Assembly: GCF_002920915.1 (NCBI RefSeq)
Contig: NZ_PQVF01000007.1
Span: 248,001 to 312,000 of the forward strand
Direction: 5' to 3'
DNA: 64,000 nucleotides
Origin: Solitalea longa
Lineage (GTDB): Bacteria; Bacteroidota; Bacteroidia; Sphingobacteriales; Sphingobacteriaceae
Shown here: one piece after another, positions 10,750 through 27,327 of the stretch
How the letters are laid out: the number at the start of each line of letters is the position of its first letter
Numbering within the stretch: the stretch's first letter is position 1
The notes under the pieces: generated by a model
What the model saw: only the letters and a program-made list of their open reading frames with translations
What the model was told of the DNA's origin: nothing
Databases searched by the model: none
Translations under genes and position numbers: made by a program

Positions 10750-10860
10750 TTTTATTGAATTAGCATTCAATAAATTACAAAAAAAGAGGCTTTCCGAAAA
10801 GAATAGCCTCTAGTATCATCGTTATGCTGAAAAAATACTATCGAGTTAAAAACTCAATAC

Positions 10861-10879
10861 AGTGTTTCGCGCGCGAGCT
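10861..10879. repeat. Direct repeat copy 1 (AGTGTTTCGC...GCGAGCT)
   Basis: AGTGTTTCGCGCGCGAGCT. A longer copy sits at 11622-11656 on the other side of the orphan gene at 11030, with extra GCGTTGCAAACGC-like bases in the middle. GC-rich and unlike the surrounding AT-rich DNA. Confidence 0.55.
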
Positions 10880-10944
10880 GGGTTTCTCTGGTGCAAAGAC
10901 TTACGCAACCCTGCCTAACTCTTAACCGAACAGTTGGGGTTTTA

Positions 10945-10988
10945 TTGATTGTAATCAAAAATTGAAAAAACCAACAACCATACCTTTG
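10945..10988 (+). promoter_or_regulatory. Promoter with FNR/CRP-like box and -7 element
   Basis: TTGATTGTAATCAA (10945-10958) exactly fits the FNR-type consensus TTGAT-N4-ATCAA. The -7 box TACCTTTG lies at 10981-10988. The box centre lies 29.5 nt before the first base of the -7 element, which is about -41 to -43 from the expected transcription start, the class II activator position. A second promoter at 24625 has identical geometry. Confidence 0.6.
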
Positions 10989-11029: not shown

Positions 11030-11494
11030 ATGGATTTTTTAAAGCGATTAGTAAATATTAACGACGAAATTGACAACTATGTCCATTATATAATTAAGTT
11101 ACTAAGCGAATCTGAGGCTATTAAAAAAATGAATATTCAACCAAATTATGACAATTGGATATCATTCATTATTGCAGAAATAGATTTTCGGAATCACAGG
11201 AAAGGTTTAACTCCAAAATACAAAGCATCATATACTGATCTTATTTATGATGTTAGAAATCGCGTTAGCTATAAAGACATCCTTGAGCAGATGAATGGTT
11301 ATAATGCGCCAAACTTAAACTCGGCATCATTTTCATTAACCAGAGTATATATGAAACATGTTTGGGGAATAACGGACCGAAGGTTATCAGACCCAATTCA
11401 ACTGACATTTTTTTCAAAAGTTTGTTCAGGCTTAAGAGAGTTTATCATGGATAGATATGAAAAAGTAATGATCTATCGTAAATCAAAGGCTTAA
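11030..11494 (+). CDS. Orphan hypothetical protein (154 aa)
   Basis: I do not recognise this 154-residue protein. It is soluble by appearance, with no signal peptide or membrane segment, and rich in helix-forming and basic residues (for example RRLSDPIQLTFFSKVCSGLREF). The ATG at 11030 is about 35 nt downstream of the predicted start of transcription from an FNR-like promoter. The gene stands alone, closed by a hairpin at 11549, and the whole unit is bracketed by related GC-rich direct repeats (10861 and 11622), which could mean it arrived as a cassette. Confidence 0.7.
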   Translation: MDFLKRLVNINDEIDNYVHYIIKLLSESEAIKKMNIQPNYDNWISFIIAEIDFRNHRKGLTPKYKASYTDLIYDVRNRVSYKDILEQMNGYNAPNLNSASFSLTRVYMKHVWGITDRRLSDPIQLTFFSKVCSGLREFIMDRYEKVMIYRKSKA

Positions 11495-11585: not shown

Positions 11586-11620
11586 GATTTGGGTTGCTAT
11601 TTTGTATTACAAACACTAAC

Positions 11621-11660
11621 AAGTGTTTCGCACGCGTTGCAAACGCGCGCGAGCTTGGTT
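11621..11660. repeat. Direct repeat copy 2 with internal palindrome
   Basis: AAGTGTTTCGCACGCG followed by TTGCAAACGCGCGCGAGCT. It shares both ends with the copy at 10861-10879 and includes the near-palindrome ACGCGTTGCAAACGCG. The remaining intergenic DNA up to mutS2 shows nothing else. Confidence 0.55.
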
Positions 11661-11739
11661 AATCTAAAAACGCTATTTCTAACAAGCCTTTTTGATTGCC
11701 TAAAAAAGCAGACTCTATATAAAGTATTTAAATACCAAA

Positions 11740-23966: not shown

Positions 23967-24395
23967 CTATTGTTTTTTGTAAACAGCAGTACCGATTCTA
24001 AATTCAGTTTTGGCATCATTCATAGCTAGACCAACAACCTTGGTTTGACCCCAGGTACCATTGGTATAATAAGTATTATTGTAAGCATCCCAATAGCCAC
24101 CGCTCTGATGTTCTATCACAGTTAGAGGGGTACCTCCTACTGCAGCTGAAGGAAAAGCTGTTCCTGCATTTGTTAGTACTCCAGTTCCTGAAGTGGAAGA
24201 AGTCACTCCTGAAATTCTAATAACAAGACCGGTTTTCGTTTCTTTCCATGTTCCATTAATATCTGTTGCGTAAAAGCCACCGCTTTCAGATGCATCTTCG
24301 GCATATTCTGATGCCGGCTCACAGCTTACTAAAGCAAATACGCTTAAAACTAATAGAAAGAGTTTGGTTAATTTGTTTGTAAAGGTTTGGTACAT
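23967..24395 (-). CDS. Small lipoprotein of unknown function
   Basis: A 142-residue lipoprotein: signal peptide with lipobox ALVSC (Cys25), then a Gly/Ser/Thr-rich mature part. The sequence DINGTWKETKTGLVIRISG followed by tandem Tyr/Trp-rich strands (GGYWDAYNNTYYTNGTWGQT) suggests a small beta barrel of the lipocalin-like type found in Bacteroidota lipoproteins. No family recognised with certainty. Divergent from the FNR-like promoter at 24625, with 229 nt between its start and that box. Confidence 0.75.
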   Translation of the reverse strand: MYQTFTNKLTKLFLLVLSVFALVSCEPASEYAEDASESGGFYATDINGTWKETKTGLVIRISGVTSSTSGTGVLTNAGTAFPSAAVGGTPLTVIEHQSGGYWDAYNNTYYTNGTWGQTKVVGLAMNDAKTEFRIGTAVYKKQ

Positions 24396-24624: not shown

Positions 24625-24668
24625 TTGATTAAAATCAATCCTATCACTTTTCGAACATGATAGTTTTG
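24625..24668 (+). promoter_or_regulatory. Second FNR/CRP-like box with -7 element
   Basis: TTGATTAAAATCAA (24625-24638) exactly fits TTGAT-N4-ATCAA and is followed by -7 box TAGTTTTG at 24661-24668. The centre-to-box distance, 29.5 nt, equals that of the promoter at 10945. Predicted transcription start is about 24673, leaving a 60-nt leader. The rest of the 339-nt gap (24396-24734) shows no other feature. Confidence 0.6.
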
Positions 24669-24734
24669 GCGGGTTGCTAAAAACGATTTTGTCCCGGAAT
24701 AACCAAATGATGGTGCTCTTTAATTAGTAAGAAG

Positions 24735-25121
24735 ATGAAGAAAAATCACGTAGTACTCTTAATATTCAGTTTGATTATTCTTGTAGCTGTATTGACGAAT
24801 CCAAATCAGGACAGGCATAAAGAGGTTCTCAAGAATAAATTAAATGCTTACCTGCAAAAATCCATGAAGAAAAGTCATACGAAATCAAAAAATAAATGGG
24901 AACAAGCAGGGCAAGCACTTGGGATAATGCTGGGTGGGGCCTTAATTGATCAAATAACTGACAACTTGGTGAGTACCGATAATTATGTATTGTTTTCAAC
25001 CACAAAGATCACATGGGAAGGCCAAGCAAAAGTTATTGGTATTGGAGCTTTTGGAAATGTGTTTATAAGCGAAAAAGTTGACAAACTATTAAATGAACAA
25101 TTGAAAAATAATATCCATTGA
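24735..25121 (+). CDS. DUF4359-like membrane-anchored small protein
   Basis: A 128-residue protein with an N-terminal hydrophobic anchor (MKKNHVVLLIFSLIILVAVLTNP), a lysine-rich middle and a C-terminal half with VLFSTTKITWEGQAKVIGIGAFGNVFI. The final glycine-rich strand pattern recalls DUF4359, whose function is unknown. It is first in a probable operon with the secreted protein at 25140 (18-nt gap), under the FNR-like promoter. Confidence 0.65.
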   Translation: MKKNHVVLLIFSLIILVAVLTNPNQDRHKEVLKNKLNAYLQKSMKKSHTKSKNKWEQAGQALGIMLGGALIDQITDNLVSTDNYVLFSTTKITWEGQAKVIGIGAFGNVFISEKVDKLLNEQLKNNIH

Positions 25122-25139: not shown

Positions 25140-25730
25140 ATGAAGAAGCTAATCGTATCAATAATTTTTGTATTAACTGCTATCATTTCATTTGCGCAAG
25201 TGAATACTAAGCCATCGGGCCATCTTATGTTCAAAGGAGTTCCTATTGATGGAACACTTACCGAGTATGTTGCTAAAATGAAACAAAATGGTTTTATTCA
25301 TTTTGGGACAGATGATGGGACAGCTCTATTAAAAGGTGATTTTGCTGCATTTAAAGGCTGTATTGTAGGAGTATCGACGTTGAAGCAAAAGGATTTGGTT
25401 AGTAAAATTGCCGTAGTGTTTCCTGAATGTGATACTTGGTCATCTCTTTCATCCAATTACTTTTCATTGAAAGAAATGTTAACTGAGAAATATGGTCAAC
25501 CTTCAGATTGTGTAGAGAAGTTTCAATCTTATTCAGAACCTGACGACAACTACAAAATGTATGAAGTGCAATTTGACAGATGTAAATATTACACCTCCTT
25601 CGAAACAGAAAAAGGTAGTATTCAATTATCCATCGAACATAAAGGGGCATCCAAGTGTTTTGTGATGTTAGTATATCATGATAAAATCAATGGTTCAATT
25701 ATAAAAGCTAATGCTATAGATGACCTGTAA
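25140..25730 (+). CDS. Exported protein of unknown function (196 aa)
   Basis: Signal peptide MKKLIVSIIFVLTAIISFAQ, mature part of about 176 residues. There are four spaced cysteines in the mature chain (KGCIVG, FPECDTW, SDCVEKF, DRCKYY) plus one near the end, so disulfides are possible. The phrase FKGVPIDGTLTEYVAKMKQNGF recurs in small Bacteroidota exported proteins, but I cannot name a family. It follows the DUF4359-like gene after 18 nt. Confidence 0.7.
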   Translation: MKKLIVSIIFVLTAIISFAQVNTKPSGHLMFKGVPIDGTLTEYVAKMKQNGFIHFGTDDGTALLKGDFAAFKGCIVGVSTLKQKDLVSKIAVVFPECDTWSSLSSNYFSLKEMLTEKYGQPSDCVEKFQSYSEPDDNYKMYEVQFDRCKYYTSFETEKGSIQLSIEHKGASKCFVMLVYHDKINGSIIKANAIDDL

Positions 25731-25821
25731 TTTTGAATAATAAAAGCAGGTACGGAAACCTTGTATGCTACTTTGGCTATAAGGACAAGACATCCAGCAG
25801 GTAAGAAATTGGGAGAGGAAT

Positions 25822-27327
25822 ATGTGCAAAGTTTATAGACCCGTTGGTTCACTAACAACAATAAAATCTCATTTGCGTAATCACAATGTAAATGAGTTCA
25901 GCTCATTAAATGAATTAATAACTTTTCAAAAAAACTATTCAGGTAATCAACAGGAAATTATTTCAAATCATTCAATCTTAATCGAGCAAGAAAAGAGTAC
26001 ACTTAACAAAGAAATAGTACAGTTAGAAGATTTCATTAAGACAAGAAAAAATGAAATTGAACAAGAACTGTTTTTTGAACTTGAAAAATTAAAGCAACAG
26101 TTAGGAAGCTTACTATCGTCACACTTTAATATTTTCAACACATTTACTAACTACTTAAAGAAAATAGGCATCAAGAAAAGGATTCGAGAGATCGAACTTA
26201 ATTTGAATCTAGAAATTGCTTATTCAATTCAAGAATCTACTAATACGCTTACTAAAAAGATCAATCGATATCAATATATCACCTCTCATTTTATGGATGC
26301 AGTTAAGCAGAGTAGCTCACTGCAACTTAAGGAACTCGAAAGAAAAAAAAGCTTAATTGATGAATTAAATACTACTATATATGGCGCTTTAGGCGAGCAG
26401 AAGGTTTCCAATGAATTAGAAAATTTACCTGATGAATATATTTTAATAAATGATTTTACTTGTTCATTTTATCCGCCAATTTATAACCGGAAAGAGAACG
26501 ACTATATAAAATCTGTTCAAATTGATCACATTTTAATCTCTCCTGCTGGTATTTTTCTTATCGAAACAAAAAACTGGAGTGAGCATTCATTAAATAATAT
26601 AAATTTACGTTCACCCGTTGAGCAAATAAAAAGAACCAACTTTGCCTTATTTAAAATTTTAACTGGAAGAATCACTAATTCACTTGACCATCATCATTGG
26701 GGAGAAAGAAAAGTTCCAATAAGAAATCTTATTGTGCTAATTAATCAGAAACCAAGGGAAGAGTTTCAACATGTGAAAATATTGATCTTAAAAGAACTTC
26801 GGAATTATGTGGAGTATTTTAAACCCAGTTTTTCAAGTAAAGAGACACAAATTATAGCCAACTTTTTACTTAGTCTTAACAGGGACAATTTCACTAAAAC
26901 ACCTGTACCCATTTCGAAAAGTGAAAGATCGATTAGGCCTTCTTTGGATTCTGGTTCAATGACTTATTCAAACGTTGACACAATTAACAAGTGGAAAACA
27001 ATCAAACTCATTTTTGGGGTTGCCTTAATTGCCATTACTATTACGTTCATTGATTTTTTAAGGCAATCCTTTGACTCATCCAAGACGGCCAATTTCCAAT
27101 ATAGCGCACAGACAGCGAGAATAAATTCAAAAAAAGGACTTCATCTACGAGACCAGCCAAGCTCGAGAGGTAAAATATTACTAACTATTCCCTTTAACGA
27201 AAAAGTAGAGATCATAGACAAAAGCGGTAATGGTGAAACAATTTATGGTCAAACAGCATACTGGTACAAAGTTGACTATAACGGTACAACTGGTTGGTTA
27301 TGGAATGAATATCTTCAAATGCAATAA
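25822..27327 (+). CDS. NERD-domain protein with coiled coil, membrane helix and SH3b domain
   Basis: A 501-residue protein. Residues 40-185: long charged coiled coil. About 190-345: NERD nuclease-related domain, opening GALGEQKVSNELENLPDEY and with the PD-(D/E)xK-like core IDHILISP...FLIETKNW (Asp and Glu-x-Lys in place). About 393-412: one transmembrane helix. About 430-501: bacterial SH3 domain (KGLHLRDQPSSRGKIL ... TGWLWNEYLQMQ). The arrangement implies a NERD domain on one side of the membrane and a wall-binding SH3 on the other. There is no signal peptide. Function unknown; NERD proteins are sometimes found with mobile DNA and defence. Confidence 0.8.
   Translation: MCKVYRPVGSLTTIKSHLRNHNVNEFSSLNELITFQKNYSGNQQEIISNHSILIEQEKSTLNKEIVQLEDFIKTRKNEIEQELFFELEKLKQQLGSLLSSHFNIFNTFTNYLKKIGIKKRIREIELNLNLEIAYSIQESTNTLTKKINRYQYITSHFMDAVKQSSSLQLKELERKKSLIDELNTTIYGALGEQKVSNELENLPDEYILINDFTCSFYPPIYNRKENDYIKSVQIDHILISPAGIFLIETKNWSEHSLNNINLRSPVEQIKRTNFALFKILTGRITNSLDHHHWGERKVPIRNLIVLINQKPREEFQHVKILILKELRNYVEYFKPSFSSKETQIIANFLLSLNRDNFTKTPVPISKSERSIRPSLDSGSMTYSNVDTINKWKTIKLIFGVALIAITITFIDFLRQSFDSSKTANFQYSAQTARINSKKGLHLRDQPSSRGKILLTIPFNEKVEIIDKSGNGETIYGQTAYWYKVDYNGTTGWLWNEYLQMQ

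Follow-up and report, generated by a model that had tools for sequence, protein, structure and literature searches.

A predicted class II Crp/Fnr promoter with a fixed 22-nt spacing rule in Solitalea longa, and its candidate low-oxygen regulon

In the window, meaning the whole 64,000-nt stretch of Solitalea longa DNA that was analysed, the element at 24625-24668 is a predicted class II Crp/Fnr promoter, an ordinary kind of element; its use lies in the strict spacing rule and in the regulon to which it leads. It is fairly probable that this element is activator-dependent, with the four-cysteine Fnr encoded elsewhere in the genome (G000:C31) as the likeliest activator and low oxygen as the inducing condition. 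The original prediction had described two FNR-type promoters of identical geometry, and the geometry holds: both lie on the + strand, with 22 nt between palindrome and box. The two copies and the genes behind them are as follows.

24625-24638, + strand: Crp/Fnr-type palindrome TTGATTAAAATCAA, an exact TTGAT-N4-ATCAA match, centre 24631.5, predicted position -41.5
24661-24668, + strand: -7 box TAGTTTTG (TAnnTTTG, primary sigma factor), predicted transcription start 24673
24735-25121, + strand: membrane-anchored DUF4359 protein, 128 aa, first gene past the promoter, predicted leader 62 nt
25140-25730, + strand: predicted secreted protein, 196 aa, starting 18 nt past the DUF4359 gene, no family above cut-off
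25728-25735, + strand: sequence match to TAnnTTTG, TAATTTTG, possibly the NERD gene's own promoter
25822-27327, + strand: NERD-SH3 protein, 501 aa, NERD and SH3_3 domains, transcript membership uncertain
10945-10958, + strand: second Crp/Fnr-type palindrome TTGATTGTAATCAA, centre 10951.5
10981-10988, + strand: -7 box TACCTTTG (TAnnTTTG), gap 22, predicted transcription start 10993
11030-11494, + strand: orphan protein, 154 aa, no Pfam match

A gap of 22, counted in nucleotides from the palindrome to TAnnTTTG, equals 29.5 nt from palindrome centre to box start, the distance found at both window copies (24631.5 to 24661; 10951.5 to 10981). The site at 24625-24668 has the DUF4359 gene on one side and a divergently transcribed gene (23967-24395, - strand) on the other, and there is no TTTG at -33 of this promoter, the right half of the palindrome occupying that place. 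Mapped starts in Flavobacterium psychrophilum place TAnnTTTG at -12 to -5 (PMC9723704), so the palindrome centre is predicted to fall at -41.5 relative to a start placed by the position of the box. That start would lie 5 nt past the box, within the range of 4-7 nt proposed earlier. Position -41.5 is the textbook position of class II activators, known for CRP and FNR; the features of this class found here are a two-fold palindrome of FNR type, a centre at about -41.5 from the predicted start, and a core-promoter distance that is fixed across targets. At the second copy, the orphan gene is bracketed by imperfect direct repeats with CGCGCGCGAGC (10846-10889 and 11607-11665).

The same register recurs elsewhere in the genome. 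There are 29 perfect palindromes genome-wide, and five oriented TTGAT-type matches are followed by TAnnTTTG after 8-38 nt; in four of the five the gap is exactly 22 nt (C7:661, C23:122036 and both window copies; binomial P ~5e-6). The regulon scan suggested by the original prediction places the register upstream of the following genes.

C7:661: focA-pflB, exact TTGAT gap-22 site (Form_Nir_trans, E 8e-71; PFL, E 2e-131)
C31:305783: ccoS-ccoNO, gap-22 site (NCBIfam TIGR00847, PRK14485)
C31:308418: ccoI, gap-22 site
C34:133312: formate-THF ligase (fhs), gap-22 site (PRK13505)

These are classical low-oxygen genes, and the same type of site thus stands before established low-oxygen genes of the genome itself. 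The focA-pflB genes of G001, another species of the genus, have a CTGATTAATATCAA site ahead of them with this spacing. Over the family as a whole, sites with a perfect TTGAT palindrome at gap 22 often stand before DoxX, pirin, nitroreductase, YceI and efflux genes and, twice, before pairs of an MFS gene and a Crp/Fnr-paralogue gene, instead of before anaerobic genes (all named by eye). Small proteins also stand behind such promoters: a gap-22 promoter precedes a 62-70-aa protein (MKASSSTFS...) and is kept in two species (L136:145, L153:243), and gap-22-type promoters precede 47-53-aa proteins with a single membrane span in two relatives (L111:382 in G003; L151:179 in G002). The G003 promoter lies near a gene for a Crp/Fnr protein of the cysteine-less kind described below, and the counterpart of that gene in the S. 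longa genome is directly followed by a site at C35:251988.

The genome encodes 13 proteins with a cNMP-binding domain, among them an Fnr of 237 aa (L030) whose gene adjoins ccoI on G000:C31 and which aligns to Aliivibrio fischeri FNR structures (E ~1e-19 to 1e-20). It carries the Fe-S ligand cysteines of an Fnr, with a different spacing of the third: Cys11, Cys14 and Cys23 match the N-terminal cluster region, with the third spacing longer (C-x2-C-x8-C), and Cys113 falls in the column of the conserved VC(E/F)IP cysteine of FNR. The VCFI motif recurs, together with N-terminal cysteines, in two more proteins (L032, L033). The recognition helix of this Fnr reads ETAIR, compared with ETISR in Escherichia coli FNR, and most of the paralogues of ~190 aa without N-terminal cluster cysteines have helices of the ETLSR/ESLSR type, closer to that of E. 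coli FNR than is the helix of the genome's own Fnr. The sites at ccoI, ccoNO, the RNA array on contig C5 (see below), G001 focA-pflB and fhs differ at the outermost base, a variation that would fit the change from Ser to Ile in this Fnr's helix.

The resemblance of the ETLSR/ESLSR helices to that of FNR lends some plausibility to a reading in which the class II geometry is the same and the activator is one of the approximately ten cysteine-less paralogues, answering to a signal other than oxygen (electrophile, redox or metabolite stress). Such a reading would also suit the detoxification and redox genes that follow TTGAT-N4-ATCAA gap-22 sites across the family, including the two cases where an MFS gene is followed by a paralogue of this very kind. 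However, of the four exact TTGAT sites in the S. longa genome, one stands before the classical Fnr target focA-pflB and none of the remaining three adjoins a detoxification gene; moreover, the C5 array uses ATGAT and TTGAT interchangeably, so one regulator probably reads both. We regard a cysteine-less activator at 24625 as a possibility of clearly lower standing, rather unlikely on this evidence. Given that paralogues share an FNR-like helix, the gap-22 geometry itself is probably common to several Crp/Fnr regulators. One cysteine-less gene, at C34:110366, has a perfect TTGAT-N4-ATCAA palindrome just upstream (L041:1919, equal to G000:C34:110784), which may reflect autoregulation; it was rejected as the regulator, since the palindrome is all that speaks for it and has no gap-22 box. 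The earlier label of FNR-type promoter is supported for the Crp/Fnr promoter class, with Fnr itself the likelier candidate and the cysteine-less paralogues with an FNR-like ETLSR helix the less likely ones.

The co-occurrence of palindrome and box in a fixed register is not a product of chance, as argued in the original prediction from the two window copies, and simulations together with the gap-22 statistics of genome and family bear this out. Two perfect palindromes are observed in the window, compared with a mean of 0.25 per 64 kb in simulated sequence of the window's dinucleotide make-up, and none of 400 simulated windows contained two sites of equal gap. TAnnTTTG occurs just 60 times in the window on the two strands, below shuffle counts, so the probability of a box at one given place is ~5e-4. 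Palindromes with one mismatch, counted without the box, show no excess in the window (6 observed, 6.2 expected); the signal there is the perfect palindrome combined with the register. With up to two palindrome mismatches at gap 22, the whole genome yields 37 matches as against 12 for a reversed control pattern, and the variant ATGATnnnnATCAT (ATGAT-N4-ATCAT) with a box has four genomic matches, all four at gap 22. In the family (up to 399 genomes), gap 22 accounts for 26 of 122 TTGAT-type sites among the matches listed, other gaps averaging 3.2 each (P ~2e-14 under a uniform gap, among the matches listed), and for 29 of 114 distinct ATGAT-type sites among the matches listed (P ~4e-18); these P values are indicative only, as near-identical copies were excluded and some of the remaining matches are related by descent. 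That the pair at 24625 is an accidental one beside an ordinary or absent promoter, as might be argued from the ordinary count of one-mismatch palindromes and from a gene-promoter combination that relatives have not kept, is contradicted by the simulations and by the genome and family statistics and is very improbable.

In the mechanism proposed, a Crp/Fnr-family dimer would bind around -41.5, on the palindrome that takes the place of a -33 element, and contact RNA polymerase carrying the primary sigma factor on TAGTTTTG. Transcription would begin near 24673 and proceed into the DUF4359 gene and probably 25140, and low oxygen would induce these genes together with the cbb3 oxidase, ccoI, focA-pflB and formate-THF ligase. 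For 24625-24668, the binding, the start, the activation and the oxygen response are predictions from sequence, oxygen being the likely signal; the uncharacterized gene after the promoter would probably be turned on when oxygen runs out. Crp/Fnr proteins also act as repressors and the start is a predicted one, so the site might be bound as a repressor site or as an upstream enhancer for another start, but repression would not need a fixed placement at -41.5, and the family-wide register and the absent -33 TTTG favour activation so far that we give this reading very little weight.

The assignment of the gene at 24735 to DUF4359 (PF14271) in the original prediction was correct (E 1.7e-9; 38.7 bits, with a Pfam gathering cut-off of 27), and 25140 probably shares its transcript. 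For the third gene the domain identity (NERD, SH3_3) was confirmed, whereas the case for its inclusion in the transcript is weakened by the separate TAnnTTTG at 25728-25735. Of 251 family genomes, 55 carry relatives of the DUF4359 protein, almost all of them belonging to one other genus; full-length matches show 29-43% identity, and the gene is absent from three other genomes of the same genus as S. longa. Its relatives at 64% identity in two metagenome-assembled genomes titled Desulfuromonadales and Chitinophagales point to horizontal transfer. The orphan at 11030 has no relatives in 150 other family genomes and is unique among the 151 searched. No gap-22 site was found upstream of the DUF4359 relatives examined (in the family and the two distant assemblies) or of the 25140 relatives at the seven loci read; the pairing of site and gene has not been kept in related species, and the proposed co-regulation of 24735, 25140, 11030 and the NERD gene draws on one genome's sequence.

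Relatives of both the DUF4359 gene and 25140 (L184, L160, L161) share a neighbouring toxin-antitoxin-like pair of one type (~120 aa, and ~100 aa with HTH), which suggests mobile cargo. A gap-22 promoter with a ~60-nt leader is common to a locus on contig C13 (L138/L186) and one in the second species (G001:C18:9957; L154/L187), and the next gene differs, being unrelated at C13 and a degraded 25140 relative at G001:C18; at both loci a Nudix gene and a 1047-aa protein follow. An integron-like origin of this swap was considered and set aside, no integrase being recognised by eye among the ORFs of the stretches examined.

Gap-22 sites also precede what look like small RNAs of Fnr type, judged from their sequence features. 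The array on contig C5 (L007, 1566-2785) consists of three tandem units, at 1566, 2035 and 2462, each of which has a gap-22 site, lacks any ORF reaching 60 aa, and carries a conserved 3' hairpin with a U-run behind it. Among relatives (L147, L148, L149), the 3' element is present five times in G001, where four of these copies have the promoter in the stretch examined; G002 carries a single 3' element and a single promoter, and G003 a single promoter with a diverged 3' element; outside the genus, the 3' element was found in none of 56 genomes. In nine hairpin sequences, 88% of the cells in the 21-pair stem are standard pairs, and three pairs are changed on both sides, whereas a shift of the partners by 1-3 columns leaves 0-1 such pairs; a shuffle control is weaker, with 35 of 500 shuffles reaching three. 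On contig C23 (L016, 2037-2420), two tandem gap-22 sites are each followed within ~60-110 nt by a hairpin, the first before a T-run, and one of these sites is kept in G001. No Rfam match was found at the C5 array, C23, focA or ccoI loci. It is conceivable, and we offer it tentatively, that several Crp/Fnr regulators of the family all work through a single rigid -41.5 architecture, which also drives a tandem structured RNA array in the genus (three copies here, at least four and probably five in a relative), the array forming an oxygen-controlled small-RNA system and the window orphans being lineage-specific additions to the regulon.

Little work has been done on oxygen control in environmental Bacteroidota, which have promoters unlike those of E. 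coli. The constant spacing of 22 nt from palindrome to TAnnTTTG provides a simple rule by which activator-dependent promoters, starts included, can be predicted from sequence alone, and places DUF4359, the 25140 family, 11030, the small membrane proteins and the candidate noncoding RNAs in a testable regulon. The candidate Fnr-driven RNA array is more novel than the 24625 promoter itself.

No report of an Fnr regulon with this register in Bacteroidota was found in a literature search that was scant on subscription papers. HcpR, MalR/Cur and Crp-Pg of Bacteroides and Porphyromonas belong to the Crp/Fnr superfamily and to the same phylum, but sense heme/NO or carbon state, and the literature searched describes none of them as an Fe-S Fnr that uses this register to control cbb3 oxidase and focA-pflB. 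The Bacteroidota promoters of the primary sigma factor (TTTG at -33, TAnnTTTG at -7) share the exact TAnnTTTG, whereas here the -33 TTTG is replaced by the activator site. Class II FNR and CRP promoters of E. coli are alike in TTGAT-N4-ATCAA, in a centre predicted here at -41.5, and in focA-pflB and cbb3-oxidase targets. They differ in the core, which is the -10 TATAAT in E. coli and the Bacteroidota -7 box TAnnTTTG here, and in the activator, the putative one here having ETAIR in place of ETISR and the N-terminal spacing C-x2-C-x8-C.
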